Shown: one piece after another, positions 7,369 to 47,639 of the stretch | Layout of the letters: each line of letters opens with the position of its first letter | Position numbering within the stretch: the stretch's first letter is position 1 | Notes under the pieces: model-generated | What the model saw: only the letters and a program-made list of their open reading frames with translations | The model's database searches: none | Told to the model about the DNA's origin: nothing | Position numbers and translations under genes: made by a program | Assembly: GCF_910592395.1 (NCBI RefSeq) | Contig: NC_088310.1 | Span: 1,619,501 to 1,683,500 of the forward strand | Direction: 5' to 3' | Length of the DNA stretch: 64,000 nt | DNA from: Lineus longissimus | Lineage: Eukaryota > Nemertea > Pilidiophora > Heteronemertea > Lineidae

Positions 7369-7758
7369 GTGTACGCCTACTTCAAAATAATTCAAAGGCT
7401 GGCAGACCTAGAGGATTATGGCGTGTCTATCACTTTCAAGGTGCGTTCCTCGATCAAAACAATTCAGTTATTAGCCCCCAGCGAGGATGAGCTGTTAACG
7501 ATGTTACATGACATGATGGCTTGTCTGATTGTAGAGATAGTAACTCCGATCAAGGGGTTCATTGATATAGAGCACGCAAGAGGGAGATCAAGCCAACATG
7601 AAGTCAAAAGCAGACCTTTGTTACTCGTTACCGTTACCATAACGTTCGTTTGGGAAGTACACGACCATTTCAGAAGGGTTTCAGAAAGGTATGTCCCTGA
7701 ACAATGCAGGGATCGGCCTCTTCAAGGGTTCTTACTATGCTTGTTGACCTCTTCTTGA
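7369..7758 (+). CDS. Unidentified open frame (possible exon), low confidence
   Basis: This ~129-codon open frame follows a good acceptor (tttctttag near 7362). Its first two thirds look coding in composition (VYAYFKIIQRLADLEDYG, later LLAPSEDELLTMLHDMMAC). I recognise no family. Its 3' third runs into the first copy of the tandem repeat that continues to ~8.67 kb, so the open frame overruns any real exon. It could be an exon of a gene shared with the frame at 8879, or a decayed gene fragment. Confidence 0.25.
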   Translation: MYAYFKIIQRLADLEDYGVSITFKVRSSIKTIQLLAPSEDELLTMLHDMMACLIVEIVTPIKGFIDIEHARGRSSQHEVKSRPLLLVTVTITFVWEVHDHFRRVSERYVPEQCRDRPLQGFLLCLLTSS

Positions 7759-17897: not shown

Positions 17898-18081
17898 TCA
17901 TCATATACTCATGAATTTGAAAGAACCGCATCTAATGCATGAACTTATATGTCTCAGAAGTCAGTATCTAGAGGTCTAGAAATCGCCTGCCATATTGGAC
18001 ATTGACGTAGACTGAATATGAACATGTGATCAATACAGTTACTTCTTTGCCTTCGCCTGATGCTAATGAGTGGCAACAGTC

Positions 18082-18087
18082 AATAAA
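18082..18087 (+). terminator. Candidate polyadenylation signal of gene A
   Basis: AATAAA lies 185 bp after the stop codon of A. The same site is kept at 23182 downstream of chimera C. A second AATAAA at 18495 is also possible. Confidence 0.35.
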
Positions 18088-18612
18088 TGGTAGACTGGTA
18101 CTCATGCTCTTTGCAAGTTTCATAGGTGAGTCTTTGGTAGAAAAAGTATTCGCCTATGTTCACTTAGTTCGTGTTCATTGTTAAAATGATTTCAATCAGA
18201 ACGGACTCGCCCAGTAGCATGTCACTATCACGCAAGATAAATCATGCAGTTGTTGTTTAGCTCGAGTACCTAAAATTGTGCATTTTTCTTGATATACGTT
18301 TATGGCGAATATCTATGGCATAACATCTGACCCATATAACTCGTTTTCATCGATATACAACCGGATTAACTTTATGACTCCTGTCAGTCTTTACAATAGA
18401 TATCTCAACTTGAATAATACACGTAAAGCCCACGTTAATAATGCGCTTCACATGAGAGCGGTTTCATTCACTTCCTCCACAAAGGACCTGTCTTAATAAA
18501 AGCTTTCAAAAATGTGGTTACTTGATCTGTCTTCATTTTTCCCAGGTTGGTCTGGGGTGTGAATCATTCCGGCAGGTGGATGCCTTGTTGATGTCCAGCA
18601 AGACGAAGCAAG

Positions 18613-20938: not shown

Positions 20939-21396
20939 AAGAATGCCAATTCTCCCAAAGATAACCTAGGATTCTCATGAGTTAGAGAGACTGGATTAAC
21001 TGACTGTAACTGGTCAACCAAGCAACTCTGGTCGGCTGCAGAAGTGCCGAAAAATATAAATGCATATTGCGCAATATCTGGTGCGAGTGATAAGCAAACA
21101 ACCTGGAAACAAAATGTACTGATCTCCGTTACATATGGCCGAAGTTTGGGAAATTCTTCACTGATATTCTAACCCAAAAGTATACAATCTTTTTTATGTC
21201 ACCTTGCAGTCTGACCTCGGTAGGTTTCAACCACTTTATGTATTCTCAGTCATTGGCATGTCGAAATCATATGTACAAATGTACATGTATATGTGTAATT
21301 TCATAGATAATAGATTGTACGTTCGCTTTACGGTTAATACAAGAGTACATGTACATTGCATTTCATTTTCATTTCTTTCTGTCTTTGGATATTTAA

Positions 21397-23001
21397 ATGG
21401 ATTCGGCAAAGCTCCCCATTCCTCTGCTGTTGGCGGTGTCATCAGTTTTCTCTCAGAACCCTTTGCAGTATGGCACCATCAGCGTCAACTCCAGTGCCGG
21501 AGTCATCACGGGGATGAAGCAATATACCACTGTCTACGGCAATGCAGCGCCCGTAAAGTGCTTCTTTGGGATCCCGTACGCCGAACCACCTACGGGGGCT
21601 CGAAGGTTCTCACGACCAGTAGCGAAGGCACCTTTCAAGGATGTTTATGACGCAACATCTGTGGATAGACCCATCTGTTACCAGAATATGGAATTACTGC
21701 AGGGAAACCCTGGACCTATTTATAATCAGACCGAGGATTGTCTTCTTTTAAACATTTACGCTCCACTCCACGCTACGCCATCCATTAAGAGAGCTGTGAT
21801 GATCTGGATCCATGGTGGAGGCTGGGTTGTTGGATCTAGTCGGCAATGGGATGGCTCCTTCATAGCCAGCTATGGGGACGTGGTGGTCGTCACGCTAAAC
21901 TATCGCCTGGGGCCTTTAGGCTATCTTGGCACTTAGGACTCGGTGGTTCAAGGTAACGGAGGCCTCTTTGACCAACTCCTGGCCATCAAGTGGGTGAAGG
22001 CAAACATTGGCGCATTTGAAGGCGACGCTGACGCCATCACTATTTTTGGATCGCTGAAGCGGCGTGGCATGAGCTTCTTCCATACGGTTACATTACCGGA
22101 CGGCAAGGACGGGCCGCCATAATTGATCTATTTTCGGACGATAATTTCATTATGCCGGCCATCGCTACAGCTCGAGTCCATGAGCGAATGGAACCAGCCT
22201 CCAGGACATTTCTGTATTACTTTGACTACATCAGTTCGGTTGGTATGTCAAAATTTCGCCCAGAGAAAGCAGCACATAGAGCAGAACAAGGCATGCTGTT
22301 TGGACCATTCGTAAACGACTCATCAATGCTACCCACTAAATTGACAGGCGTGGATGCCCAAGTCCATTTTGCGTTGCTCACGTACTGGACAAACTTTGCA
22401 AAATATGGGTAAGTGCAAAACGATAATTGTTTTGATTCTGAAAATATCCGGCTTTCACTTCTCCGATACCATGACCTTTGATATGACATCAACCAGGTGG
22501 TAGTCTTCATTAAATGAGGATTTATTCACTCTGAAAATAACCAGACGACCACATTGTAGATTTATAGATCTAAGCTTTCTAAATGTTGTCATTTATTTCA
22601 GGAACCCAAGTGGTGATGGAACTACGGCAACAAAAACCCGCACCGCGTTTCCCGAATGGCCCGAGTTCACTGTGGACAAGCAGCAATACATGAACATCGC
22701 CGCCAACAGCACCTCAGTACTACTCACAGTCAAGAAAGACTTGCGAGCCAAAGCAGCCGCCTTCTGGTTGGATTACATACCATACCTAGCCAACCAGACC
22801 TGCCCAGTGTTCAGTGTCGTATGCCCTTCGTGTCCCCCGATCATGGATCAGTATATCAGCTATCTCCGCCTGACTGTCGGTCAAGCTCATGTTGTAATCA
22901 TCATCGTATTCGCTGCAACACTCGCTTTCTTTACTTTCGTTGGTCTTATCCTGCTCATCTGCTACATCAAACTGAGGAAGGAACTGTTGAGGCAGAAATA
23001 A
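21397..23001 (+). pseudogene. Chimeric esterase pseudogene C (D-like 5' part, A-like 3' part)
   Basis: The first 654 bp (21397-22050) match the start of gene D; the rest (22051-23001) matches the end of gene A. The join falls at a shared GGA and is the junction of tandem duplication 1. The open frame from the ATG stops at TAG 21934-21936, where D has GAG (Glu180). Beyond the stop the D frame continues to the join, then meets the A part out of frame. The D-like part holds the signal peptide, T-E-D-C-L-L-L-N and H-G-G-G-W. The A-like part keeps F-R-P-E-K-A-A-H, the donor at 22409 and a complete second exon (22602-23001) with the transmembrane helix. No functional full-length product is possible. 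A truncated secreted 179-residue N-terminal fragment is conceivable. Confidence 0.9.
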
Positions 23002-26000
23002 TCATCATATACTCATGAATTCGAAAGAACCGCATCTAATGCATGAACGTATGTGTCTCAGAAGTATCTAGAGGTCTAGAAATCGCCTGCCGTATTGGAC
23101 ATTGCCGTAGACTGAATATGCACATGTGATCAATACAGTTACGTCTTTGCCTTCGCCTGATGCTAATGAGTGGCAATAGTCAATAAATGGTAGACTGGTA
23201 CTCATGCTCTTTGCAAGTTTCATAGGTGAGACTTTGGTAGAAATAGTATTCGCCAATGTTCACTTAGTTCGTGTTCATTGTTAAAATGATTTCAATAAGA
23301 ACGGACTCGCCCAGTAGCATGTCACTATCACGCAAGATACAAATATAACATAAATCATGCAGTTGTTGTTTAGCTCGAGTACCTCAAATTGTGCATTTTT
23401 CTGGATATACATTTATGGCGAATATCTATGGCATAACATCTGACCCATATAACTCGTTTTCATCAATAAACAACCGGATTAACTTTATGACTCCTGTCAG
23501 TCTTTACAATAGATATCTCAACTTGAATAATACACGTAAAGCCCACATTAATAATGCGCTTCACATGAGAGCGGTTTTATTCAGTTCCTCCACAAAGGAC
23601 CTGTCTTAATAAAAGCTTTCAAAAATGTGGTTACTTGATCTGTCTTCATTCTTCCCAGGTTGGTCTGGGGTGTGAATCATTCCGGCAGGTGAATGCCTTG
23701 TTGATTTCAAGCAAGACAAAGCAAGATGGCGATTATAAGTGGCACAGTGCTGGTTCTTTCGTTCATCGCTCTTACTTGGGGAGACCAAACTAAGAACCCC
23801 TACTTCCGCAAATACCACAGCATCAATCTCGGGAACAAGAGTATCGGAGGCACAGAGGAAACAATCAACGCATTCGGCACTGATTACAATCTTCGCAACT
23901 ACCGAGGGATTCCGTACGCTGAACCTCCAGTCGGGAAACTTCGTTTCAAACCACCCGTTCCAAAGGTTTTACCAGACGGTTACAATGCGACTGGTTTTGG
24001 TGACTCTTGTCTTCAAAATAGTCCTGATTTGGTAAAGAATGACACTTTGATAACTGACCCTATGTACCACACGAAGCAGAGCGAGGACTGTCTGTATCTC
24101 AATATCTATTCGCCAGCAGATGCAAGCCCAACCAAGACGAAAGCGGTCCTTGTGTTTTTTCAAGCCCGTGGTGGATGGGTGGCGGCAGCCGGGCATCAAC
24201 ACAATGGGATGGTACTCTCCGCACTTGGAGATATTATTGTGGTGACGTTCAATTACCGCCTTGGTGTGTTTGGGTTTCTCCAAACAGGGGTGAAAGGATC
24301 TGGTGCAAACTTTGGAGTACAAGACCAACAAGAGGTGATCAGATGGGTAAGCTCGAACATCCAATACTTTGGTGGTGACAAGGACAGGGTGACAATATTC
24401 GGAATACGGACTGGCTGTGTCGACGTGACTCTCCATGCTGCTTTTATAGGGAAGACCGAAAAATTAATCAGACGCGTCATATGTTCTGGAAAAACAGCAG
24501 CATCTAGCATTCCTACTGGTCTCGAAATTTCAGACAATCCAGGTAGAGCAAGCATGCTGCTTGCCGAATTCACAGGCTGTAAAGAGAGAGCTATCACCAG
24601 CGTTGCCGAGACAGAACGTCTCTTTGAGTGCCTTCGTGGGAAGACAGCAGCTGAAGTGTTCCAGGCGAGTTTAAAAGTGGCAAGGAAAGTGTTGGAACCT
24701 AATTCGACCGAGACGCCACCTTGGGGACCTAGTGTTGATGGCAGCATTATCAAGTTCCATCCTTCCGTGTACTACCGCACCTTGGATCCTCGTTACCAAC
24801 CTCAACCTACTCTAAATGAGAGTGTGTTGATCGGGATACGATATGTTGACGGTGCAATCTGGAATAGAATTTTCGAGGAGAGGCTAATATTTTTCTCGGC
24901 GGCAAATCTGACACCACCAGTAACGAAGCTTTCAGAAACGGTACTAAAGACCATCCTCTTACCACGACTTTTCATAAAACTCAAAAACCGGGATAGAGTC
25001 GCCAAAGCATCATTCCAAGAGTACTTCGCTGGTTTACCCTCCGATGCCTCCTATGACACGGTGCGAAAGGACAGATTCACTGAAATGATTCAAGACTTGC
25101 TTTCCTCCTCAGGCCTTATCGGGATCGCCAGAATTCGAGCTCGCGTCCAAAATGGGAGAACATTTATGTACCACTTTACGCAGGAAGATCCTACTCTATT
25201 CCAAGGTCAAACTCTCTCAAGGTCACTAGAACAGACGTATGTGCTTGGCGATATAGCTTTGGTGAACACAACCATGAACGTCCGGCCTAATGTTACCATG
25301 GATACCACTGAGAATATAACATCAGTGGACAAAGACATGACCATTGCTATGATCAACTACTTCGCGAACTTTGTCAAATTTGGGTAAGTAATACACTTAT
25401 GCTACGATTCATGAGGTAATTACTGTGATAGAGAAAGATGAACATGAACAACATCACGAACATGAAACATGAAACAAGAACGATATCATGATGATTGTTC
25501 TCGGCTGTTGTACTGAACATGGCATTTTACATGGCGATTCAAACTATAAATGCAGCACGAGCGAATTCCATTTGGAATTCTGTATGTTGGCGATTGATTT
25601 CAAGCATATGTAACCAAAGGAGTCTCTTGATTGTCAATCCGTTTCTTATTGCCTTTGTAGGGACCCAAATGGTAACATGAGTGATGCATCCCGTCCAAAC
25701 ACCTACCCCGAATGGCCAGAATTTACCGCGGCCAATCACTTATACATGGACATTGGCTCAAACAGCACCAGTCTCGTCCTGAATGTAAAGAAGGATCTGC
25801 GCGCCAAACAAGCCTCGTTCTGGTTAGAGTATATCCCCTATATCATGGGCAAGACATGCACAGTACCAGAGTCATGCGAGACAAAGTGCCCCTCACTGGA
25901 GGGTCGGAACATCGGTGATCTTGATATAACAGTGGGCCAAGCGCAAGCTGTTATTGTGATCCTGGCAGTAGGTACCGCTGTGTCTGGATGTCTTTCTCTG

Positions 26001-27175
26001 ATTCTCCTCTCTGCCTGCAGTAAATTGAGAAAGCAGGTCAAACTGAAGTAAAAGAATGCCAATTCTCCCAAGGATAACCTAGGATTCTCATGAGTTAGAG
26101 AGACTGGATTAACTGACTGTAACTGGTCAACCAAGCAACTCTGGTCGGCTGCAGAAGTGCCGAAAAATATAAATGCATATTGCACAATAACTAGTGCGAG
26201 TAATAAGCAAACAACCTGGAAACAAAATGTACTGATCTCAGTCACATATGGCCGAAGTTTGGGAAATTCTTCACTGATATTCCAACCCAAAAGTATACAA
26301 TCTTTTTTATGTCACCTTGCAGTCTGACTTCGGTAGGTTTCAACCACTTTATGTATTCTCAGTCATTGGCATGTCGAAATCATATGTACAAATGTACATG
26401 TATATGTGTAATCTCATAGATAATAGATAGGCAAACACATTGTACGTTCGCTTTACGGTTAATACAAGAGTACATGTACATTGCATTTCATTTTCATTGC
26501 TTTCTGTCTTTGGATATTTAAATGGATTCGGCAATGCTCCTCATTCCCTTGCTGTTGGCGGTGTCATCAGTTTTCTCTCAGAACCCTTTGCAGTATGGCA
26601 CCATCAGCGTCAACTCCAGTGCCGGAGTCATCACGGGGATGAAGCAATATACCACTGTCTACGGCAATGCAGCGCCCGTGAAGTGCTTCTTTGGGATCCC
26701 GTACGCCGAACCACCTACGGGGGCTCGAAGGTTCTCACGACCAGTAGCGAAGGCACCTTTCAAGGATGTTTATGACGCAACATCTGTGGATAGACCCATC
26801 TGTTACCAGAATATGGAATTACTGCAGGGAAACCCTGGACCCATTTATAATCAGACCGAGGATTGTCTTCTTTTAAACATTTACGCTCCACTCCATGCTA
26901 CGCCATCCATTAAGAGAGCTGTGATGATCTGGATCCATGGTGGAGGCTGGGTTGTTGGATCTAGTCGGCAATGGGATGGCTCCTTCATAGCCAGCTATGG
27001 GGACGTGGTGGTCGTCACGCTAAACTATCGTCTGGGGCCTTTAGGCTATCTCGGCACTGAGGACTCGGTGGTTCAAGTTAACGGAGGCCTCTTTGACCAA
27101 CTCCTGGCCATCAAGTGGGTGAAGGCAAACATTGGCGCATTTGGCGGCGACGCTGACGCCATCACTATTTTTGGA
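22051..27175 (+). repeat. Tandem duplication 1, copy 2 (5125 bp)
   Basis: Second copy of the unit at 16950-22050. It covers the A-like 3' half of C, gene B' and the 5' part of gene D. The parental order was probably A-B-D, and the duplication produced A-B-(D/A chimera)-B'-D. Confidence 0.9.
23726..26051 (+). CDS. Esterase-like B': second copy of the membrane-anchored pseudoenzyme
   Basis: Exon 1 is 23726-25383 and exon 2 is 25661-26051 (phase 2; 682 residues, same length as B). It is nearly identical to B. It shares the same losses: Q-A-R-G-G for the oxyanion hole, G-I-R-T-G-C for the nucleophile elbow (a Cys where B has Gly) and no His at the catalytic position. Differences cluster just after the nucleophile elbow (A-A-F-I-G-K-T-E-K against A-A-V-I-G-K-I-Q-K) and around the Y-Y-R-T-L-D-P-R segment. 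Exon 2 begins with Gly-Asp-Pro instead of Gly-Asn-Pro. Both copies keep open frames and splice sites, which argues that the non-catalytic form is retained, although the duplication is recent. Confidence 0.85.
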
Positions 27176-28116
27176 GTGTCCGCTGGAGGGTTCGACACGT
27201 CCTTGCAGTGCATTTCACCCCTTTCTGCCGGTGCAGGCTTGTTCAAGCGATGCATTCCGCAGAGTGGCGCTGCAATCTTCACTACACCAAATCATATTCC
27301 TTTTACTCGCACACCGTTGAAAAATGCCCAGACTCTTGCAGCCACCCTGAGCTGTACTACAGACAACACAGTCGATATGGTTGAGTGCCTGCGAACAAGA
27401 TCGGTTGACGAGATCCAGAAGGCGGCCAGTACCCTCCTTCTTGACGGTAGACCGGTCAACTTTCAGCCTGTAATTGATGGCGATTTCCTGCCGGAGTCAC
27501 CCCTCGACCTGTTCTCAAACCCAAACATGGAGGCCTTCAAACGTTTCAAATCCATCGACCTTATGATTGGTAGTACCAGCGGTGATGGGGATGTCGGGCT
27601 TGGGAATTTTAGGTATTTGGTGCAACAGGGTCGCGTGCCTGAGAACTTCACCATAACAAAGGAACAGTTTGTTGAACTGCTGCAGTGGTGGCTGGGTGAC
27701 ATTTCCTCTGACGTGATCACAAATGTAGATGAAGTGCTTCAGGCTACGCTCAATGAATACCTTCCGCTTGTTGACATCGACCTGCTCGAGGCCAGGGATA
27801 TCTTAATTGATATGCTGTCTGATCTAATGTTCATCGGACCAGCCATAGCTACAGCACAGACACATGAAAGGATGGCAACTGGTGCCAAGACCTTTATGTA
27901 CTTCCTGTCCTACACAAATGGCCAATACGCGATGTCTAGCTCAAGAAGAGAAAGAACTGCACATGGCGCGGACACACTATATTTGTTCAACATACCGAGT
28001 GAAGAGAATTGGGACTTGGCAAACATAAGCATCCCTTTCTATATAGAAGTCACACCCTCCGACAGAGAACTTGCAAAGGCTATGATCACGTACTGGACTA
28101 ATTTTGCCAAATATGG
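26522..28116 (+). CDS. Esterase D: catalytic-type carboxylesterase exon without a private anchor exon
   Basis: One exon encodes 531 residues up to the phase-2 donor GG/GTGAGT. It has a signal peptide (1-19), the Cys94-Cys115 pair typical of cholinesterases, T-E-D-C-L-L-L-N, oxyanion H-G-G-G-W (139-143), nucleophile Ser220 in G-V-S-A-G-G (Val replaces the usual Glu), acid Asp355 in S-G-D-G-D and His481 in T-A-H-G-A-D. The triad is complete and its spacing is normal for the family. No transmembrane exon lies between here and gene E. If the donor is used, the nearest acceptor with the family tail is at 38070, giving 685 residues. Unspliced, the frame ends in TGA right after the F-A-K-Y-G end, giving a secreted esterase. 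The substrate cannot be predicted. Confidence 0.85.
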
Positions 28117-28753
28117 GTGAGTATAAAATTTGGTTGTCCATTATTTAAATCATACCCTAAACTGTGTCACTGTAATGTCAGCGAAGGCGTGTTCTTGTCC
28201 TAACTCAAGCCGATAGAAGACTTGAGCCAGACAGCGTGGAGGAATGTGATGGTACAAACGTAACTTGAAGATAAGATAACGGTGATGATGAAACTTTTAA
28301 TATTTTGAGTAGGAGCTCATCCAAACAGGGGTTTCTCTGTTGGTGGCTATTCCTGAACTACTATTTAGGTACTCAAGGCCAATACGACATTGTACGGAAA
28401 GATAATAGCGATAAAGACAATTATCAACCTGTTACATAACAAAATAGCTTTGGTCACAAATAAAGTTTAAAAGCTTTGACATATTGGAGTGATTTTAAAT
28501 GATTCATGGTGATGTTACATAGCCTGTACGTATTCCCTGCTATTATTTATAGGCCCTTGCCAATATGCATAGTGTATACATTTGACCGTAGAGCTGTAAG
28601 CCGAACATTATTTGTAAGATTTAATCATGTAATTATAGGCCTAATTGAACTCTTTTAGGCCTATACCTCTTAACTTGTTTTGACGTTGCTAGGAGTTGGT
28701 TTTGGAATGTTTTAAGACAGTCGAAATATCAGTATAGAATAACTTAAACCACG
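28117..28753. other. D-E spacer: no anchor exon present
   Basis: I searched this spacer for the second-exon landmarks (Gly-Asn-Pro start, F-W-L-(D/E)-Y, transmembrane run). None is present. The spacer holds the 359 bp segment that is inverted in the other copy, and presumably the promoter of E. Confidence 0.6.
28360..28718 (+). repeat. 359 bp segment, inverted relative to 31810-32167
   Basis: The segment begins actatttaggtactcaagg and ends ggaatgttttaagac. Its reverse complement occupies 31810-32167. Flanks are colinear in both copies (cctgaact on the left, agtcgaaatatcag on the right), so only this block flipped. Left ACT and right AGT form a 3 bp inverted repeat at the ends. No terminal inverted repeats or target duplication mark it as a transposon. 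It ends 35 bp before the ATG of E and so covers most of that gene's likely promoter. Inside it, tataggcct (28634-28642) and aggcctata (28657-28665) form a 9 bp palindrome. Confidence 0.9.
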
Positions 28754-30312
28754 ATGGAAGCTTCCTATTTATTCGTCACTTCCCTGTGCATTGCCAGTGT
28801 TCTTTCTATAAACCACAAACTCCTCAACTACATAACCGTGAACTCTAATGTCGGGATCATTCGAGGAAGTAAAGAATCGGCACGTATCTTTGGACGAGAC
28901 CACACAGTGAACGTCTTCCGTGGTATACCCTATGCCGAACCTCCCGTAGGGGTGCTCAGATTCAAACGGCCCATTTCAAAGACTGTCTTCCTCGACGTGT
29001 TTAATGCTACAAAATATGGAGATATTTGCATGCAGCCCTACTACCCGGAATTGTCAAGTAACTTCCCCCAGAGTGAGGATTGCCTATCCCTGAATGTATA
29101 TGCCCCAGGTGGGTCAAATGCTACCAACAAAAAGGCTGTGATGGTGTTCATCCACGGCGGTGGTTGGGTGATTGGAGACGGCCGTGGCTATAATGGCATA
29201 CAGTTTGCTGGATTTGGAGACGTGGTATTGGTCACTTTGAACTACAGGTTGGGACCGTTTGGTTTCCTCAGTACGGAGACTGCCGATTTTCCAGGTAACA
29301 TGGCGCAATTTGATGAGCTATTAGCACTTCAATGGGTCAAGAGCAACATTGCCGATTTCGGAGGTGATCCAGATGTTGTGACCGTGTTTGGCGAATCTGC
29401 AGGAAGCTTTGATACAACTTTGCATGCTATATCACCATTGTCGGCAGGGCAGGGATTGTTCCACCGCTGCATTCCCGAGAGTGGCTCAACCATCGTTCCA
29501 TTTCCGAAACACCCAACTATTGTAGAGAATCATCTTGAACGTGCGAAAGCACTTGCCAAGCTTGTAGGATGTACGACTGGTGACTTGAACAACATGGTGA
29601 AGTGCATGCAGACAACGAGACCAGGGGATATTCAAACCAACTCCCAGAAGATGGTTGCTAGTGGCTTCGCTGATTCAGTATGGGGGCCTCGAGTGGATGG
29701 TGACTTCATTCCCGCACCGCCACATGATCTCTTCGCTGACCCACATCTGAGCGCTTACTCCGGGTTCAAGGACATCGACTTACTGATTGGGTCAAATAGT
29801 GCTGACGGAGATGTTTTCCTTCCTGGTGCATTCGAAGAAATGGTAAACACGGGACTTTTACCAATCAATCTCTCCATGTCCAAGGAGTCCCTCGTCAAAG
29901 CCATGCAGAAAATCTTTGAAGGTGTGCCGAATGAAAATGGTGTTATTAAAGCCATTATTCAAGGGTATGTTCCCCCTATTGAAATAAGTGGGCAAGATGG
30001 TCGAGACCTCATGGTGGATATGCTGTCGGACAGCGTCTTTATCATGCCAGCCATTGCATCAGCCCAAACCCACGAAAAGATGTCACGAGAAGCCAAGACC
30101 TTCATGTACTTTTTCGATTTCGTTGACCCTTCTGCACCCAGCTCCACCTATCGACCGGAGAAAGCAGCTCATGCGGCGGAGTTGTCATTTCTGTTCAACT
30201 ACCCCCTCGAGGATTCCTACACTCAGATTAACCAGTCATGGAACATCACTGACAATGACAGGCAGCTCAGCAAGGCGATGCTTTCGTATTGGACCAATTT
30301 TGCCAAATTCGG
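28754..30312 (+). CDS. Esterase E: catalytic-type carboxylesterase exon without a private anchor exon
   Basis: A single 519-codon exon ends at GG/GTAAGA in phase 2. Features are a signal peptide (~1-18), S-E-D-C-L-S-L-N, H-G-G-G-W (134-138), nucleophile Ser215 in the canonical G-E-S-A-G, Asp351 in S-A-D-G-D and His473 in K-A-A-H-A-A-E-L. All triad members are present, so activity is likely. The only oddity is G-E-S-A-G-S, where copy G has the usual G-E-S-A-G-G. The spacer to F is ~330 bp and has no second exon. Splicing to 38070 would give 673 residues; read-through ends at TAA after the F-A-K-F-G end. The tandem copy is G at 32205. The upstream 359 bp is in the opposite orientation in the two copies. 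Confidence 0.85.
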
Positions 30313-30645
30313 GTAAGATTTCATTCTATCTCCGCTTAAAAATGTGAACGTATTCAAATCACCACAACAGATTGATTGCATAGAAATTTTATTGACAACG
30401 CAGCTAGTTCGATGTCGCATATTGCTATCAAAGTATTATCTTAAGCTTTTGTACATGTACATGTATCAAATGATTAGGGTTAATGTGTGCCCAACTATTA
30501 TTGGTCATTTTCATCAAATATCAGTACATATCAGTATATCGAATGGTCTGAGCGAGTTACCCCACAATAGCTCCTGGGACCTTTCCTTAAGGGGTATAGA
30601 TATAGTACGTCAGTACCGGACTATTAAAGAGCACGACAGAGCGAA

Positions 30646-31566
30646 ATGCATTTATCAACAGCACTTCTGGTTTTATTGGTTAACTGTTCGTTGGGGGCAT
30701 TTAACCCCTTATTTAACTCGTATACAACCTTGTACACTCAACTAGGTCGGATAAGGGGGGCCAGGGAGATGTTTTTCTACGCCGGAAACGTGTATAAAAT
30801 CGATGTGTTCAGGGGAATACCATTCGGAGAGCCGCCGACAGGCAATCGGAGATTCACGAAGCCGGTGTCCAGAGTGAGATTTGACGAGACTTTCAACGCT
30901 ACGGAGTTCGGTGATGCCTGCATACAGGATCGGCTTGGGTCGAGCCCCGATCCTATGGTTCATAGTAACATGAGTGAGGACTGTTTGAATCTGAACATCT
31001 ATGTGCCCGTCGACAACCCTACCAACATGTCCCACAAGAAGGCTGTCATGGTCTATATTCACGGTGGAGGTTGGGCCCGTGGTGCTGGCATGTTGGTTCA
31101 CCATAACAAAGGAACAGTTTGTTGAACTGCTGCAGTGGTGGCTGGGTGACATTTCCTCTGACGTGATCACAAATGTAGATGAAGTGCTTCAGGCTACGCT
31201 CAATGAATACCTTCCGCTTGTTGACATCGACCTGCTCGAGGCCAGGGATATCTTAATTGATATGCTGTCTGATATAATGTTCATCGGACCAGCCATAGCT
31301 ACAGCACAGACACATGAAAGGATGGCAACTGGTGCCAAGACCTTTATGTACTTTCTGTCCTACACAAATGGCCAATACGCGATGTCTAGCTCAAGAAGAG
31401 AAAGAAGTGCACATGGCGCGGACACACTATATTTGTTCAACATACCGAGTGAAGAGAATTGGGACTTGGCAAACATAAGCATCCCTTTCTATATAGAAGT
31501 CACACCCTCCGACAGAGAACTTGCAAAGGCTATGATCACGTACTGGACTAATTTTGCCAAATATGG
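30646..31566 (+). pseudogene. Chimeric esterase pseudogene F (H-like 5' part, D-like 3' part)
   Basis: Bases 30646-31097 match the start of gene H: signal peptide, R-G-I-P-F-G-E-P-P, S-E-D-C-L-N-L-N and H-G-G-G-W. From 31098 the sequence matches D from its F-T-I-T-K-E-Q-F segment to the donor at 31567. The join is the junction of tandem duplication 2. It removes the nucleophile and acid regions and shifts frame, so translation from the ATG ends at 31123-31125 after ~159 residues. The D-like part is still open in its own frame and keeps T-A-H-style His and the phase-2 donor GG/GTGAGT. A functional esterase is impossible. A TATA-like tatagatata lies ~48 bp upstream, as in H. Confidence 0.9.
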
Positions 31567-31809
31567 GTGAGTATAAAATGTGGTTGTCCATTATTTAAAT
31601 CATACCCTAAACTGTGTCACTGTAATGTCAGCGAAGGCGTGTTCTTGTCCTAACTCAAGCCGATAGAAGACTTGAGCCAGACAGCGTGGAGGAATGTGAT
31701 GGTACAAACGTAACTTGAAGATAAGATAACGGTGATGATGAAACTTTTAATATTTTGAGTAGGAGCTCATCCAAACAGGGGTTTCTCTGTTGGTGGCTAT
31801 TCCTGAACT

Positions 31810-32167
31810 GTCTTAAAACATTCCAAAACCAACTCCTAGCAACGTCAAAACAAGTTAAGAGGTATAGGCCTAAAAGAGTTCAATTAGGCCTATGATTACA
31901 TGATTAAATCTTACAAATAATGTTTGGCTTACAGCTCTACGGTCAAATGTATACACTATGCATATTGGCAAGGGCCTATAAATAATAGCAGGGAATACGT
32001 ACAGGCTATGTAACATCACCATGAATCATTTAAAATCACTCCAATATGTCAAAGCTTTTAAACTTTATTTGTTCCAAAGCTATTTTGTTATGTAACAGGT
32101 TGATAATTGTCTTTATCGCTATTATCTTTCCGTACAATGTCGTATTGGCCTTGAGTACCTAAATAGT
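31810..32167 (-). repeat. Inverted counterpart of the 28360-28718 segment
   Basis: Reverse complement of the block upstream of E, ~358 bp, with a few small differences (for example gttccaaagc here against the complement of gctttggtcac). It ends 37 bp before the ATG of G. The two duplicate esterase exons therefore have their upstream segments in opposite orientations. Confidence 0.9.
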
Positions 32168-32204
32168 AGTCGAAATATCAGTATATAGAATAACTTAAAC
32201 CACG

Positions 32205-33766
32205 ATGGAAGCTTTCTATTTATTCGTCACTTCCCTGTGCATTGCCAGTGTTCTTTCTATAAACCACAAACTCCTCAACTACATAACCGTGAACTCTAAT
32301 GTCGGGATCATTCGAGGAAGTAAAGAATCGGCACGTATCTTTGGACGAGACCACACAGTGAACGTCTTCCGTGGTATACCCTATGCCGAACCTCCCGTAG
32401 GGGCGCTCAGATTCAAACGGCCCATTTCAAAGACTGTTTTCCTCGACGTGTTTAATGCTACAAAATATGGAGATATTTGCATGCAGCCCTACTACCCGGA
32501 ATGGTCAAGTAACTTCTCTCAGAGTGAGGATTGCCTATCCCTGAATGTATATGCCCCAGGTGGGTCAAATGCTACCAACAAAAAGGCTGTGATGGTGTTC
32601 ATCCACGGCGGTGGTTGGGTGATTGGAGACGGCCGTGGCTATAATGGCATACAGTTTGCTGGATTTGGAGACGTGGTATTGGTCACTTTGAACTACAGGT
32701 TGGGACCGTTTGGTTTCCTCAGTACGGAGACTGCCGATTTTCCAGGTAACATGGCGCAATTTGATGAGCTATTAGCACTTCAATGGGTCAAGAGCAACAT
32801 TGCCGATTTCGGAGGTGATCCAGATGTTGTGACCGTGTTTGGCGAATCTGCAGGAGGCTTTGATACAACTTTGCATGCTATATCACCATTGTCGGCAGGG
32901 CAGGGATTGTTCCACCGCTGCATTCCCGAGAGTGGCTCAACCATCGTTCCATTTCCGAAACACCCAACTATTGTAGAGAATCATCTTGAACGTGCGAAAG
33001 CACTTGCCAAGCTTGTAGGATGTACGACTGGTGACTTGAACAACATGGTGAAGTGCATGCAGACAACGAGACCAGGGGATATTCAAACCAACTCCCAGAA
33101 GATGGTTGCTAGTGGCTTCGCTGATTCAGTATGGGGGCCTCGAGTGGATGGTGACTTCATTCCCGCACCGCCACGTGATCTCTTCGCTGACCCACATCTG
33201 AGCGCTTACTCCGGGTTCAAGGACATCGACTTACTGATTGGGTCAAATAGTGCTGACGGAGATGATTTCCTTCATGGTGCATTATTCGAAGAAATGGTAA
33301 ACACGGGACTTTTACCAATCAATCTCTCCATGTCCAAGGAGTCCCTCGTCAAAGCCATGCAGAAAATCTTTGAAGGTGTGCCGAATGAAAATGGTGTTAT
33401 TAAAGCCATTATTCAAGGGTATGTTCCCCCTATTGAAATAAGTGCGCAAGATGGTCGAGACCTCATGGTGGATATGCTGTCGGACAGCGTCTTTATCATG
33501 CCAGCCATTGCATCAGCCCAAACCCACGAAAAGATGTCACGAGAAGCCAAGACCTTCATGTACTTTTTCGATTTCGTTGACCCTTCTGCACCCAGCTCCA
33601 CCTATCGACCGGAGAAAGCAGCTCATGCGGCGGAGTTGTCATTTCTGTTCAACTACCCCCTCGAGGATTCCTACACTCAGATCAACCAGTCATGGAACAT
33701 CACTGACAATGACAGGCAGCTCAGCAAGGCGATGCTTTCGTATTGGACCAATTTTGCCAAATTCGG
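32205..33766 (+). CDS. Esterase G: tandem copy of E, catalytic-type exon without a private anchor exon
   Basis: A 520-codon exon ends at GG/GTAAGA, phase 2. It differs from E at only a few residues, including F-L-H-G-A-L-F-E-E against F-L-P-G-A-F-E-E (one extra codon), and it has the canonical G-E-S-A-G-G. The full triad is present: Ser in G-E-S-A-G, Asp in S-A-D-G-D, His in K-A-A-H-A-A-E-L. The oxyanion H-G-G-G-W is intact. There is no second exon before H. Splicing to the exon at 38070 (4.3 kb away) would give 674 residues; read-through gives a soluble form ending at TAA. As it is a recent copy of E, differences in expression may come from the inverted upstream block. Confidence 0.85.
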
Positions 33767-34050
33767 GTAAGATTTCATTCTATCTCCGCTTAAAAATGTG
33801 AACCTATTCAAATCACCACAACAGATTGATTGCATAGAAATTTTATTGATAACGCAGCTAGTTCGATGTCGCATATTGCTATCAAAGTATTATCTTAAGC
33901 TTTTGTACATGTACATGTATCAAATGATTAGGGTTCATGTGTGCCCAACTATTATTGGTCATTTTCATCAAATATCAGTACATATCAGTATATCGAATGG
34001 TCTGAGCGAGTTACCCCACAATAGCTCCTGGGACCTTTCCTCAATGGGTA

Positions 34051-34060
34051 TAGATATAGT
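34051..34060 (+). promoter_or_regulatory. TATA-like element upstream of H
   Basis: tatagatata lies ~49 bp before the ATG at 34100. The same element is kept upstream of F near 30598. It suggests that H has its own promoter rather than depending on upstream transcription. Confidence 0.35.
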
Positions 34061-34099
34061 ACGTCAGTACCGGACTATTAAAGAGCACGACAGAGCGAA

Positions 34100-35697
34100 A
34101 TGCATTTATCAACAGCACTTCTGGTTTTATTGGTTAACTGTTCGTTGGGGGCATTTAACCCCTTATTTAACTCGTATACAACCTTGTACACTCAACTAGG
34201 TCGGATAAGGGGGACCAGGGAGATGTTTTTCTACGCCGGAAACGTGCATAAAATCGATGTGTTCAGGGGAATACCATTCGGAGAGCCGCCGACAGGCAAT
34301 CGGAGATTCACGAAGCCGGTGTCCAGAGTGAGATTTGACGAGACTTTCAACGCTACGGAGTTCGGTGATGCCTGCATACAGGATCGGCTTGGGTCGAGCC
34401 CCGATCCTATGGTTCATAGTAACATGAGTGAGGACTGTTTGAATCTGAACATCTATGTCCCCGTCGACAACCCTACCAACATGTCCCACAAGAAGGCTGT
34501 CATGGTCTATATTCACGGTGGAGGTTGGGCCCGTGGTGCTGGCATGTTGGTAAACGGAGCGCCACTGGCGGGATACGGCGGAGTTGTAGTGGTTACGTTC
34601 AACTATCGCTTAGGGGTGTTTGGATTCCTGTGCACGGGCGATGACAACATTCCCGGGAATGCTGGGAGCTTTGATCAGGTCCTTGCGATCAAATGGGTAA
34701 AGGACAACATAGGAGATTACGGAGGAGATCCCGATCGAATAACAATATTTGGGAACTCTGCTGGAGGCGTGGCTGTGATCCACCACTCAATCTCGCCACT
34801 GTCAGCAGGACTTGGCTTGTTTCAGCGGGCTATATCTATTAGTGGCACCCCGATATCAGCTGCTCCAAATCGGAAGAAACCTGTGCCGAGTCCATTATCA
34901 AAGGTACAGAGACTTGCAACAGATCTGGGTTGCTATGACAAATCCGACACGCTAGATTCAAATAAGATGGCGGAGTGCCTACGAGAGAAGCCCTTTGATG
35001 AAGTCCTTAAGTCCAGCGGGAATATCCCTGGCTGGTACCCTGTTGTTGATGGTGATTTTATCCCCGAGGATCCGGCGAATGTGTTAGAAGACAACACCAT
35101 CCCAAAATTCTCCAGTCTTACTTCGATTGATTTGATGGTGGGATCTAACAGTGCGGATGGCGACGGTGGATTCAATATGCTGGTGAGAAGTGGGACTCTC
35201 GCGAGTGCAGAGAGTGACCCTCCGAAATTCTACCTGACGAAACCTGAGCTAGCAGAGGTGATTGAGAAGTACTTCCAACTGGTACCAAATGAGGAAGGTG
35301 TTGTTAAGGCGGTACTTCATGAATATGTCCCTTCTTATGGTAACATGACTGCTTTCGAAGGCCGCAACATCATGGTTGATCTCCTTTCTGATAATATGTA
35401 CATCATGGCATCAATAGCAACTGCTCGTGTCCACGCAAAGATGTTATCAGACCACCTACAAAGGTCAATCACGGCCAAAACGTTCCTGTATTTCTTCGAT
35501 TACGTAAGTCCGCTCAAGAACTCTCAATGGCGGCCTGAAAAGGCTGGACACACGGCCGAGCTTTCCTTCATTTTCAAAGATGCCGCATTGGAAGAGACGA
35601 ATAGCTTGCTGAATATAGCGACAGCCAATGTCTCTGACAGTGATAAGGATGTTAGCGAAGCTTTACTGGGTTACTGGAGCAACTTTGCAAAGTTTGG
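34100..35697 (+). CDS. Esterase H: catalytic-type carboxylesterase exon without a private anchor exon
   Basis: A 532-codon exon ends at GG/GTAAGT, phase 2. It has a signal peptide (~1-17), R-G-I-P-F-G-E-P-P, S-E-D-C-L-N-L-N, H-G-G-G-W (139-143), nucleophile Ser220 in G-N-S-A-G-G (Asn replaces Glu), Asp353 in S-A-D-G-D and His484 in K-A-G-H-T-A-E-L. The triad is complete. Several N-glycosylation sites are visible (N-A-T, N-M-S, N-M-T). The 513 bp to gene I contains no second exon. The nearest family acceptor is 2.4 kb downstream at 38070, which would give 686 residues. Read-through of the donor ends at TAA. Its 5' part was copied into chimera F. Confidence 0.85.
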
Positions 35698-36210
35698 GTA
35701 AGTGTTAATCTTTGAAGATGGCTGACCGTTACATGTATTTTCTATTTGTACTCTTGTGATGAGAGGCTCGCTGTGTATGGCCATGGCAGTTGATTTATCG
35801 CAGCCGGCTGCTAACTAACATGCCGCATGAGAAAAAGCTGCCAACGGGGCTCAAATCTTTGACATTTGAAACTATTCAATGACTGTTCATATTGTGACTT
35901 GATTTTGACCCATCTTTTCCATTACTGATTGTTATCTTGTACATATCGTGTATATGGCTGTTGACATTGTATATAGCCACGCGAAAATATTCTCTTTGAA
36001 CAATTATTATTCAATGTCAATACCGCATATCAGGTCACTCGGTCTAGCAGTTGGTGAATGTTTTGGGCGGCGGAACTCTCTTCTTCCCGTCTGTGCGGAT
36101 TTGGTACATTGAGGTGCTTCTGTGAGAGTACCTAGTCCAGAGGTACCCACCGTCTTCACACTTGAAAAGGATTCAAATGTTATGAGACTTTGTGAAGGTG
36201 TACATTCAAG

Positions 36211-38532
36211 ATGATTCCAGTGGGGGTGTTTCTTCTCCTGTACGTGTGTTCGATGGTCGCAGGCCAAGAGAACCCACTGATGATAGGTAACACAACGGTT
36301 AACACAAAAATCGGGCCTATCTTTGGATTGAAGGAATTCATCGTCACAGAACAAAAGAGGCACGAGCTGTACGTGTTTAGGGGGATACCGTACGCGAAGC
36401 CGGCAACAGGTGACGCCAGGTTTAAGAAGCCTGTTCCGATGGCGCCGTTTTCGACCCTATTCCAAGCGACCAAGTTCGGAGACTCCTGTTACCAGGACGA
36501 AAGCACTGCCGTGTTTACCTTCTTCGGCGGTTATGAGCCTTTGCAACATAAGAACGTCAGTGAGGACTGTCTGTATCTCAATATTTACGCTCCTGTTGCA
36601 GCGACAACGACTAATCAAAAGGCTGTGATGGTTTACATTCACGGCGGGCGGTGGATGAAAGGATCTGGCCAGTCTTTCTCTGGCTGGGCTGTTACTGCGG
36701 GAGGTGATGTCTTGGTGGTTACGTTCAACTATCGTCTCGGGCCGCTTGGATTCCTTAGCACGGGGGATTCAAATGGAAAAGGGAACTACGGATTGTTCGA
36801 CCAGGCATTAGCTCTGAAGTGGGTCAAGGATAACATTGCTAGCTTTGGAGGTGATGTGAATCGGATAACAATCTTTGGTGAATCGTCTGGTGGTGTTGAT
36901 ACTGCTCTACATGCAATGTCTCCAGTGAGTGTGGGTCTGTTCCAACGCGCCATCCCACAAAGTGGAAGTGGTTTGTCGTCTCTTCCGTTTTCCTTTTCAA
37001 TCAGAGATGACCCAGCCGCCTATGCAAAGGGACTTGGGCACCTACTCTCATGCAACACCACTGACACAGCCAAGCTTATGACCTGTTTCCGGTCGAAATC
37101 TGCTGCCGATATACACAGATATGGCGCCGAAGCGTATGCCAGCATACCGAGCAAGTTAACTCTAGAGCGGGGCATTGGCCCTGTGGTGGATGGCGACTTC
37201 GTCCCGAGTCGCCCGACCGGACTCTTCTTTGACACAAACGCCAAAGGCTTCAGCAACTTTCCCAATGTTGACCTACTGATAGGATCCAACAGTGCAGATG
37301 GCGATAATGGCTTCCAGAACTTAGCAAGTAAAGGCAATTGGTCCGGTGCTCCGAACTATTACCTTACCAAAGACAACCTGACCTCTATCATGACAGGATA
37401 TTTCTCTGCCTTGCCGAATTCTGAACGCGTGACAAAAGCTGCTCTACAATACCTTTACCCGGTGGGCGATATAACCGACGAGGAAAGAAGGAACCTGATG
37501 GTTGATATGGTCACCGATGATATGTTCACCATGCCAGCTATAGCCACTGCACAGGTCCACGAAAGAATGGGAAAAGGGACCAAGACGTACCTGTACCATT
37601 TCGACCAAGTCAACAAGCTGTTCGCCTCAAGTGTCAGACCAGGAAAAGCACCTCACGCCGGTGAACTTACCTATCTATTTGGTTGGGTCGCCCTCAACGA
37701 GACACTTGCCTTCCTGAACAGAAACCCACCATCCCCCATCCCTGAGGTGGATGTGGAGATTAGTAAGGCAATGATTATCTATTGGACCAACTTCGCCAAA
37801 TATGGGTACGTTTACCTTACTTTCAGTGGGTGTCTGTCACTCACTTACCGGACCCAAAAGATACCCAAGTTTACTTTGGTCAATGAAGTGCTGCAACATG
37901 TAATCGTCCCTACATTGGTGTAAAGGTAACGCCCACTTTATTTCAGACATGAGGCGAGGTATGTCTTGAAGAAACACAAATGGTACCATCAGTGAATCAA
38001 CGACCCCTTGTTGCAAGAAAACCCCTTACAACCAACGTTTACACTCGCTTTATCTTTGCATCTTTGCAGGAATCCAAATGGTAACACAAGTGACCCCTCC
38101 ACCATCTCTTCCCTCCCGATGTGGCCAGAATTCTCGCTGGACAACCAACAATATCTCGACATCGGCTCAAACTCTACCAACCTTCTGCTGACGGCAAAGA
38201 AAGACCTGCGGGCCAAGCAAGCATCATTCTGGCTCGACTACCTCCCGTACGTCCTCAACCAGAGCTGTCCAGTGCCGTCAACTACTGCTGCACAGTCTCC
38301 TTGCCCGACGTGCCCTCCTATCATGGACCAATACATAGGATATCTCAGGATCACTGTGAGCCAGGCTCAGGCTGTTATTGTGACCTTCGCCGTGCTTACT
38401 GCGTTCTTTGGCTGTCTCACCCTAATCCTCTTGTTTGCCTGTTGCGCTATGAAAAGGAAGTTAAAGGCAAGGGGTGAAAAAGATGAGGCGCCATCTCACT
38501 CTAACCCGGCCTTCTCTTCAATGAGTAACTGA
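36211..38532 (+). CDS. Esterase I: membrane-anchored catalytic-type carboxylesterase with the downstream anchor exon
   Basis: Exon 1 is 36211-37805 and exon 2 is 38070-38532 (phase 2; 685 residues; intron 264 bp). It has a signal peptide (1-18), S-E-D-C-L-Y-L-N, oxyanion H-G-G-R-W (144-148; the third Gly is Arg), Ser225 in G-E-S-S-G-G, Asp363 in S-A-D-G-D and His482 in K-A-P-H-A-G-E-L. The triad is complete. Its donor is GTACGT, not GTAAG or GTGAG, so read-through adds 38 residues to a TAA at 37921 instead of stopping at once. Exon 2 has the family linker (F-W-L-D-Y-L-P-Y), C-P-T-C-P-P, a transmembrane helix and a ~30-residue cytoplasmic tail, longer than those of A and B. I is the nearest user of this exon; D, E, G and H may share it. 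Confidence 0.85.
38070..38532 (+). CDS. Putative shared (constant) membrane-anchor exon of the D-I esterases
   Basis: The acceptor TTTGCAG is followed by G that completes the split Gly codon of every upstream esterase exon. The exon encodes 153 residues: G-N-P-N-G-N start, an N-glycosylated linker, K-K-D-L-R-A-K-Q-A-S-F-W-L-D-Y, four Cys before the membrane, a helix around residues 103-125 (AVIVTFAVLTAFFGCLTLIL) and a polar tail ending F-S-S-M-S-N with no obvious C-terminal PDZ motif. It is the only such exon between 26.1 and 64 kb. Use by I is almost certain; use by D, E, G and H is inferred from conserved donors, identical phase and the lack of any alternative acceptor exon. Confidence 0.7.
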
Positions 38533-38550
38533 AGGCAAAGGTTAGCAGTA

Positions 38551-38728
38551 TAGTAGAACCTCTCTACTAAGGACACCCTCGGGACTGACAAGTGTTGTCC
38601 TTAATAGAGAGGTGTCCTGATTAGAGAGGTCAAATTGAATGGAAAGAACCAATTTGGGACCAAAACTAGTGTCCTTAATAGAGAGGTTGTCCTTGATAGA
38701 GAGGTGTCCGCTAAGGGAGGTTCTACTG
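38551..38728. mobile_element. MITE with Tc1/mariner-pogo-like ends (178 bp)
   Basis: Near-perfect terminal inverted repeats (tagtagaacctctctactaa against the complement of the 3' end, cagtagaacctcccttagcg) are flanked by TA on both sides (38549-38550, 38729-38730). Inside are several copies of a gtccttaatagagaggt motif. The ends resemble non-autonomous pogo/Tigger-type elements. It has no coding capacity and sits 19 bp after the stop codon of the anchor exon, so it is probably part of that 3' UTR or just beyond it. Confidence 0.8.
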
Positions 38729-39187
38729 TACTTCATTCGGGCTATATGTTCTAATTAATGAAGTATCTGTTAAAATAGATATTACTGATACACCTATCAC
38801 GACTTTCTCTCAGTTCGTGTACTCGTCAAGCCCATTAACTACGATTCTATACCGCGACTAACCTTATCTTATCTTAGGTTTCATTTCGCTGTTGCGGCTC
38901 ACTCTCCCCAGATGGTCGCCCCTGCCCCTGTTCTCATCAATTGATCAGGCTAGTTCTTGACAATGCAACCAGAGCGCGCTCATTGATCCCGTCACTCACA
39001 CCAATAACATGAATTCGATTCAAACGCTGGGGCACTCGGCAGTTAGTCAGAGTCAATTTATTCACTCGCTTCTTTGCAGTGCCGTACAACGCTAGTTTAA
39101 GTTTCTTTACGGATTGTACAAAGGTCCCTCCAAACTCCTAGATTAAGGAGGATTAGGGATTAAGTCAGGTTTAATATCACCAATAGG

Positions 39188-47250: not shown

Positions 47251-47252
47251 CA

Positions 47253-47639
47253 AGTCAAGAAAGAAGTTTGTAAGTGAGGGATTCGCACGGAAGATGCACA
47301 AGTCAAGGATGTAGTTTGTAAGTGAGGGATTCGCACGGAAGATGCACAAGTCAAGGATGTAGTTTGTAAGTGAGGGATTCGCACGGAAGATGCACAAGTC
47401 AAGGATGTAGTTTGTAAGTGAGGGATTCGCACGGAAGATGCACAAGTCAAGAATGTATAGTTTGTAAGTGAGGGATTCGCACGGAAGATGCACAAGTCAA
47501 GGATGTATAGTTTGTAAGTGAGGGATTCGCACGGAAGATGCACAAGTCAAGAATGTAGTTTGTAAGTGAGGGATTCGCACGGAAGATGCACAAGTCAAGA
47601 ATGTAGTTTGTAAGTGAGGGATTCGCACGGAAGATGCAC
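47253..47639. repeat. 48-50 bp minisatellite, eight units
   Basis: The core taagtgagggattcgcacgg begins at 47271, 47319, 47367, 47415, 47465, 47515, 47563 and 47611. Six-of-eight units are 48 bp or end the array; two are 50 bp because of an extra TA (gtatag for gtag). Units alternate ggatg/gaatg in the junction segment. The 48 bp period keeps frames open on the minus strand and creates repetitive peptides that are not genes. There is no spacer/repeat alternation, so this is not CRISPR-like. Confidence 0.9.

Follow-up and report, generated by a model that had tools for sequence, protein, structure and literature searches.

The vertebrate UGT1 (UGT1A) locus joins variable exons to four constant exons, with a conserved motif 5′ of each variable exon, and its transcripts are established. 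In the clustered protocadherins (alpha and gamma), a variable exon provides the entire ectodomain as well as the transmembrane segment. Neuroligins are also membrane-anchored, and vertebrate butyrylcholinesterase has a conserved intron site and is known for silencing truncations. The cited part of a report on the chelicerate sDscam genes describes tandem 5′ cassettes, with a promoter before each, spliced to a constant exon; both the cap-proximal and the downstream cassettes can be joined to this exon (PMC4835542). For carboxylesterases, the cited part of a Bombyx study lists CCE011a/b and CCE014a/b as isoforms from a single gene, generated by alternative splicing, and a phase-2 intron that is strongly conserved in 45 of the 69 CCEs studied; an array of heads on a common last exon is not described in that part (PMC3017765).

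The stretch of DNA analysed here, called the window, comprises 64,000 nucleotides of Lineus longissimus (NC_088310.1, positions 1,619,501–1,683,500 of the forward strand, assembly GCF_910592395.1). It contains esterase head exons and anchor exons, all on the plus strand, and the presence of several heads in a row before a single tail exon suggests that one tail may be joined to interchangeable heads. The window sequence is free of N, has no Rfam match at the gathering threshold, and a tRNA scan using the bacterial code came back empty.

Results

Head exons

Five heads, D (26522–28116), E (28754–30312), G (32205–33766), H (34100–35697) and I (36211–37805), are complete esterase exons, as the initial annotation had claimed. 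Each is open from its own ATG to a common FAK(Y/F)G codon, with the donor placed two bases into the glycine codon (GG/GTGAGT in D, GG/GTAAGA in E and G, GG/GTAAGT in H and GG/GTACGT, the weakest, in I). D, E and H are without a private anchor, while I adjoins the anchor exon. The matches of the five heads to the PF00135 profile score 387–413 bits (cut-off 27), and a motif scan finds the Ser (GxSxG), Asp and His motifs in all of them, a combination that would fit active carboxylesterases. The exons are intact, but their number as distinct heads was overstated: G is a 98% amino-acid copy of E, and the distinct heads facing the single anchor are four (D, E, H and I).

Head A (16229–17307), which has a private anchor, carries an in-frame internal deletion that takes the catalytic serine region, and head B (18613–20270) has neither the catalytic Ser nor the His motif; neither of these two private-anchor genes contains a GxSxG sequence or other catalytic serine motif. 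Head B′ (23726–25383) is a 96% amino-acid copy of B. C (21397–22408) combines a D-like 5′ part, which contains an in-frame TAG at 21934, with a 3′ part that resembles A and is read in a different frame, and F (30646–31566) combines an H-like 5′ part with a D-like 3′ part, also in another frame. Every head has its own ATG and a hydrophobic amino-terminus.

C and F are located at the junctions of two tandem duplications, the first and the second respectively. In the first (16947–27175), the segment 16947–22050 is found again at 22048–27175, 97.2% identical. In the second (27647–34551), the segment 27647–31097 is found again at 31097–34551, about 99% identical, with positions 28357–28721 inverted at 31807–32170. 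C and F are junction chimeras of these duplications, whether real or an assembly artefact, and A-B-D-E-H-I is the older gene order. Being recent copies or junctions, G, F, C and B′ were set aside as independent evidence.

Anchor exons

HMM and tblastn scans locate five anchor exons in the window, starting at 17501, 20548, 22602, 25661 and 38070. The anchor of A (17501–17897) encodes 131 amino acids with one hydrophobic segment and that of B (20548–20938) encodes 129; the anchor 3′ of C (22602–23001) is a copy of that of A, and the anchor of B′ (25661–26051) is matched by tblastn and HMM. These private anchors are indeed near their heads, with introns of 193, 277, 193 and 277 bp for A, B, C and B′, respectively. 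D to I are followed by one anchor exon (38070–38532, 153 amino acids), which has the highest acceptor score of the five. That this anchor is single and the spacers are empty, as initially annotated, is borne out by profile, tblastn and motif scans. A sixth anchor was not found in the window (the next best match has an E-value of 0.47 in tblastn, 3.2 in hmmsearch with --max and 0.55 with a seven-anchor profile), nor was an anchor-like segment found in the D-E, E-F, F-G, G-H and H-I spacers by a relaxed motif scan. On these negative scans, overlooked private anchors in the D–I spacers were rejected as an explanation. The 40 kb flanks on both sides of the window contain no head or anchor match in tblastn at E-values up to 0.01.

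The anchor exon 38070–38532 encodes the end of the hydrolase domain, a Cys-rich stem, a hydrophobic segment and a short tail. Heads D, E, G, H and I all end at position 472 of the 515 positions of the PF00135 (COesterase) profile. For H, the match covers positions 4–472 alone and 4–515 when the anchor is added; for I, these values are 3–472 and 3–515. In sequence, the anchor-coded residues align with the carboxy-terminal parts of chains of known structure from neuroligins and cholinesterases. The description of the shared exon as a membrane tail falls short, as the final part of the hydrolase is also encoded there.

The layout is seen again elsewhere in the genome, on contig C13, where an intact anchorless head (h2) is followed by an anchored head (h3), with the anchor exon at 4366423. 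Dispersed paralogues (C2 and C11) contain one head and one anchor apiece, with the same donor codon as in the cluster.

Splice sites and transcript ends

Splice sites were scored with an approximate weight matrix, and acceptors were scanned up to about 335 bp upstream. For 1375 background GTs the 99% level is 3.9, which the donors of heads D, E, G and H exceed with scores of 4.3–5.2; for 1482 background AGs it is 4.7, and the acceptor at 38070 reaches 6.9. The three older heads without an anchor, D, E and H, retain the aligned donor, with scores in the top 1% of the background GTs; these heads are mutually saturated at synonymous sites, so this retention is more than chance. Two observations count against tandem first exons spliced to a shared last exon: the donor of I, nearest to the anchor, has the lowest score (1.9), and the best upstream acceptor-like sites of D (3.4) and E (4.2) exceed the background 95% level of 2.1. 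With this approximate matrix and scan length, none of D, E, H and I is preceded by an acceptor at the level of the window anchors (5.3–6.9).

When the heads are read through their donors, a stop codon follows immediately in D, E, G and H, because GTRAG in phase 2 creates it. Alternatively, D, E, G and H could be autonomous genes that stop at this donor-made codon (GGGTRA) and encode short, soluble, secreted esterases. Acetylcholinesterase has a read-through form, and an AATAAA at 28459, 343 bp past the D donor, could mark the end of a short transcript of D. We regard this as unlikely: the short proteins would end at position 472 of 515, without a segment that is found in the related chains of solved structure, and the private-anchor genes A and B contain the identical immediate stop, as follows from the GTRAG phase. 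Furthermore, I, with GTACGT, continues for 38 codons beyond its donor, and the G at +1 and the G at +5 are retained in D, E and H, although the stop codon needs neither. The first 970 bp or so 3′ of the anchor end at 38532 contain neither AATAAA nor ATTAAA; poly(A) signals were dropped as a test between these readings, as none follows the real anchor either.

Divergence and constraint

The copies show no evident sign of recent constraint, given the dN/dS values of 0.87 for E and G (3 synonymous and 9 nonsynonymous changes) and 0.78 for B and B′. The E/G value would suit anchorless heads that are decaying remnants, having lost their anchors and yielding no functional protein, as would the broken C and F and the missing catalytic residues of A and B. 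With B as outgroup, D also shows 62 unique changes to only 34 in I (chi-square 8.2), which counts against tandem first exons spliced to a shared last exon. Decay is nevertheless very improbable, since D, E and H remain intact for 519–532 codons, and preserve their catalytic motifs and donors, although their synonymous sites are saturated. When h3 is used as outgroup, no difference in amino-acid rate is seen between the anchored I and D, E and H. On C13, the anchorless h2 has evolved no faster than the anchored h3 (28 and 30 unique changes, respectively, with h1a as outgroup; the protein rates are alike), and their pairwise comparison gives a dS of 0.69, a dN of 0.16 and a dN/dS of 0.23.

Regions upstream of the heads

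The upstream regions of D, E, H and I (up to 450 bp) have no 8-mer or longer word in common. A TATA-like pattern precedes A, C, D and G and is absent upstream of B, B′, E, F, H and I. These scans say little about promoters and lend no sequence support to own promoters, and a shared promoter motif was dropped as a candidate, there being no common k-mer upstream of D, E, H and I. Palindromes resembling GTACATGTAC are present 5′ of C, D, F and H.

A strong acceptor-like site (18546, score 8.3) is located 67 bp 5′ of the ATG of B, and weaker ones precede D and E. These sites might point to cassette splicing, in which one upstream promoter serves mutually exclusive internal heads, as in insect Dscam1, or to a trans-spliced operon. 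Such arrangements are highly improbable, as each head has the start codon and hydrophobic amino-terminus noted above and the acceptor-like sites upstream of H and I do not score above −0.4.

Discussion

Least credible is an assembly artefact in which unmerged haplotypes account for the repeats and assembly removed private anchors: both repeats have mid-exon, non-homologous junctions (overlaps of 3 and 1 bp), and their X-Y-X-Y form and low divergence (0.4–3.5% in the compared parts) are as expected of overlapping haplotype contigs placed end to end, yet an artefact could delete G, F, C and B′ and still leave one anchor behind the series D-E-H-I, the D-E and E-H spacers are each present in two copies (once partly inverted), all without an anchor, and a like layout exists on C13, with the window itself uninterrupted by N. 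An artefact limited to the copies is compatible with a shared last exon.

The cluster is best read as having a shared last exon, because C13 repeats the layout and the anchor exon encodes the hydrolase end missing from the heads. We consider it quite probable that the locus consists of tandem variable first exons, each under a promoter of its own and spliced to a common last exon, similar to UGT1A and the protocadherins. The anatomical side of this model is shown in exon layout, phase, donor and acceptor strength and long-term constraint, in the lack of further detectable anchors among the heads and in a second locus of like layout. The initial annotation had already proposed a UGT1A-like organisation; its layout stands, being seen again on C13 and with heads that lack the hydrolase end, while its five heads are too many and its membrane tail is too narrow a term.

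For the esterase cluster we infer a separate promoter for each head, transcription that reads through, and the splicing and topology of the products as follows. Every head exon, encoding a signal peptide and the greater part of the hydrolase domain, would begin its own transcript, and a transcript of any head would extend as far as 38532. The cap-proximal head would be spliced from its phase-2 donor to the sole acceptor at 38070, and the downstream heads, without a strong acceptor, would be skipped. The shared exon would then finish the hydrolase domain and add the Cys-rich stem, a transmembrane helix and the short tail. The product would be one kind of membrane-tethered scaffold with exchangeable catalytic heads.

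The chances seem about even for a wider proposal: that head-only duplication 5′ of an anchored gene made at least two arrays (in the window and on C13), that promoter choice picks the head in each cell, and that the result is either a phase-I equivalent of UGT1A, tethered to the membrane, or a neuroligin-like system of surface diversity, with a constant exon that supplies the end of the catalytic domain as well. If transcripts confirm the model, the layout of one tail and many heads, known from UGT1A and the protocadherins, arose independently in animal carboxylesterases, and two loci in one genome would mean that it evolves repeatedly by duplication of the first exon only. The C13 pair, being younger, would make an early stage of such a cluster open to testing. 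Heads of this kind would otherwise be annotated as truncated genes or pseudogenes, so the esterase repertoires of invertebrates may be miscounted. An esterase locus with such a layout is absent from the titles and opening abstract lines of the literature matches listed, which cover few subscription papers and are weak evidence of absence.

When the cluster is compared with known systems, it has in common with UGT1A and the protocadherins the ATG-started, tandem homologous heads, the common donor codon and phase, and the one downstream anchor; its heads presumably serve as first exons of mRNAs. UGT1 belongs to another enzyme family and has its four constant exons where the esterase cluster has one, the motif before each UGT1 variable exon has no counterpart found in the cluster, and the cluster is known from genomic sequence alone. 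Unlike in the protocadherins, the transmembrane segment is in the shared exon, together with the end of the catalytic domain. As far as the cited part of their description goes, the chelicerate sDscam genes resemble the cluster as an invertebrate case of tandem 5′ cassettes on a constant exon, but those cassettes are multi-exon Ig units of adhesion proteins, whereas the cluster encodes hydrolases. In the cited part of the Bombyx study, CCE011a and CCE011b have their first 62 residues in common, which is the reverse polarity (PMC3017765). The neuroligins and cholinesterases have their domain family in common with the cluster, and I joined to the anchor has a neuroligin-1 chain as its best PDB match (E-value 5.4e-87). 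That chain has a glycine at the serine position, while D, E, G, H and I keep the Ser, Asp and His motifs; the GxSxG serine sets these five apart from neuroligins.

Organization of the esterase cluster

The genome assembly comprises 391 Mb in 30 contigs; the window (contig C3, 1619501–1683500) contains no N and has 43% G+C. Genes with exons and introns, and proteins of the cholinesterase/neuroligin type, suggest an animal source. In tblastn searches with the window's own heads as query (E up to 0.001), the esterase heads, large exons carrying an ATG and most of the carboxylesterase domain (PF00135), are confined to 16229–37806, on the plus strand throughout. Neither a head nor an anchor, the downstream exon encoding the domain end and a membrane segment, was matched in the 40 kb on each side of the window. 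Each of the heads D, E, G, H and I runs complete from its ATG to the FAK(Y/F)G motif that ends all five, with the donor placed after the GG of a Gly codon, as it is in heads A, B and B′, each of which is directly followed by a private anchor. Five anchor exons start at 17501, 20548, 22602, 25661 and 38070. A six-frame search of the window with hmmsearch --max retrieves them at E < 1e-70, with the next match at E 3.2, and a profile of seven anchors finds the identical five, the next-best hit having E 0.55. Nine stretches (those between C and B′ and between B′ and D not among them) were also scanned with a relaxed motif for the segment that completes the domain; this recovered the A, B and I anchors plus one match at 59697 that is interrupted by a stop, and gave zero matches in the D–I spacers. 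The anatomy of the locus is confirmed: as the initial annotation had described, five complete heads with a donor at one Gly codon precede a single anchor (38070–38532), with none in the spacers between them. Elsewhere in the window, an exon-like open reading frame at 2742–3059 matches a galactose-binding/F5_8 type C domain, and repeats spaced at intervals of about 48 bp and 290 bp lie at 47251–47639 and 7679–8667.

Two tandem duplications are present. Positions 16947–22050 of the window recur as 22048–27175 with 97.2% identity, and 27647–31097 recurs as 31097–34551 with about 99% identity; B′ is therefore the second copy of B, and G that of E. The claim of five heads on one anchor thus stands as five intact exons, while its copy number has to be corrected. 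Both junctions are mid-exon and non-homologous. Head C begins like D and ends like A, with the two parts in different frames and an in-frame stop at 21934; F begins like H and ends like D, again with its parts in different frames. Within the second duplication, a 365-bp piece of the D–E spacer (28357–28721) is inverted in the second copy (31807–32170), with sharp ends. The repeats may be real duplications or haplotypes joined end to end; an artefact in the copies is compatible with a true shared anchor, so the explanations of the locus are not mutually exclusive. Collapsing the copies leaves A(anchor)-B(anchor)-D-E-H-I(anchor).

The putative shared anchor and its splice sites

The PF00135 match of the head exons alone ends at position 472 of 515; for H and I, the two heads run with the anchor, it reaches 515 with a gain of about 30 bits. 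When I plus anchor is compared with PDB sequences, the anchor-coded residues align to the C-terminal part of a neuroligin-1 chain, on to residue 595. After the domain end, the anchor exon encodes a Cys-rich stem, a 21-residue segment with a mean hydropathy of 2.6 and a short tail. A head stopping at its own donor would be predicted to have neither domain end nor membrane segment. Directly after the anchor, at 38545–38730, lie repeated tagagaggtgtcct-like units.

Splice sites were scored with an approximate weight matrix, against a background of 1375 GTs and 1482 AGs. The donors of D, E, G and H score 4.3–5.2, each above the 99% level of the background GTs (3.9), and that of I (GTACGT) only 1.9. 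The acceptor at 38070 scores 6.9, the highest among the five anchors (99% level of background AGs, 4.7). With the same approximate matrix, the best acceptor-like sites within the roughly 230–335 bp upstream of the heads score 3.4 for D, 4.2 for E, -1.1 for H and -0.4 for I; B has an upstream acceptor-like site scoring 8.3. A stop directly follows the donors of D, E, G and H and also those of private-anchor heads A and B; such a stop arises incidentally from GTRAG read in this phase.

On the sequence evidence, 38070–38532 is likely to be a shared last exon. Each head would have its own transcription start, the transcript from each would extend to 38532, and the first head of a transcript would be joined to 38070 by splicing, over introns predicted from the coordinates at 9953 (D), 7757 (E), 4303 (G), 2372 (H) and 264 bp (I). 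Promoters were undetectable from sequence, no 8-mer common to the upstream regions being found; a TATA-like pattern lies upstream only of A, C, D and G.

Constraint on the heads

D, E, H and I are all intact, although in pairwise comparison about 80% of synonymous sites differ (saturated) and dN is about 0.5. By motif, all four keep the GxSxG serine, the aspartate at the acid position and the histidine. The catalytic serine is lost in private-anchor genes A (16229–17307), where an internal deletion has removed its region, and B (18613–20270), which has neither the serine nor the histidine motif; the shared-anchor heads retain the serine. Two results count against a reading of constraint: dN/dS is 0.87 for E/G and 0.78 for B/B′, close pairs with few changes, and with B as outgroup D has 62 unique changes versus 34 for I (chi-square 8.2). 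With the same outgroup, E/I (55/42) and H/I (48/45) show no clear difference, and with h3, a head on contig C13, as outgroup none of the pairs differs (D/I 62/52, E/I 53/50, H/I 54/46).

Related loci in the genome

The protein of the I anchor has at least 11 matches in the genome (E up to 0.001; 20 of 20 candidates scored, counts of large families being lower bounds). Five of these lie in the window and two on C13; C2, C4, C11 and the 22.49 Mb region of C3 have one apiece. C2 and C11 (60 kb examined on each) contain one head and one anchor, with donors GG|GTAAGT and GG|GTGAGT, respectively. In the 7 kb seen of C4, a near-full-length head with anchor is a close relative of the C11 gene; a head fragment lies upstream of it at 22762595–22762889. 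A more distant paralogue at C3 22486077–22488244 (3.2 kb seen) has an anchor part split into two pieces with about 290 bp between them.

A second locus with the layout of the window was found on the minus strand of C13 (4366016–4375587; 16 kb examined), in the order h1, anchor, h2, h3, anchor. The coding sequence of h1, which has its own anchor, is split over two frames, reflecting either an extra intron or a break. Head h2 is intact and ends in a donor (GG|GTGAGT) followed by about 1 kb free of anchors before h3, which has the same donor and an anchor with a strong acceptor (8.9). The two are 76% identical (dS 0.69, dN 0.16, dN/dS 0.23). Their protein rates show no difference, with 28 versus 30 unique changes when h1a is the outgroup, and 22/13, 17/19 and 19/17 when the outgroup is I, C2 or E, respectively. 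Pairwise dN/dS alone is compatible with recent loss in h2, yet h2 shows no clear acceleration.

Heads h2 and h3 group as a separate clade with 100/100 support, so the anchorless state on C13 most simply arose independently of that in the window. D, E and the C2 and C11 heads cluster together (97/96 with A, 86/90 without A, 90/87 in a larger set), and H and I are poorly resolved. Since the C2 and C11 genes have private anchors, heads D, E and H probably became anchorless on at least two occasions within the cluster. That such heads have survived for so long would be most readily explained if they make use of the downstream anchor.

Comparison with known systems

Among the matches listed in the open literature (titles and abstract openings, with subscription papers mostly outside this scope), no esterase locus with such a layout was recognised. 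The carboxylesterases of Bombyx include isoforms from a single gene, in one instance with the first 62 residues in common (PMC3017765). Chelicerate sDscam provides invertebrate tandem 5′ cassettes, each with its own promoter (PMC4835542). The nearest layout among the systems compared is that of UGT1, where the signal peptide and N-terminal domain come from tandem variable exons, and the C-terminal domain and transmembrane segment from common ones (PMC1885805; UGT1A is also covered in PMC9209448). The esterase cluster is likely to be a variant of this multiple-first-exon kind of layout.
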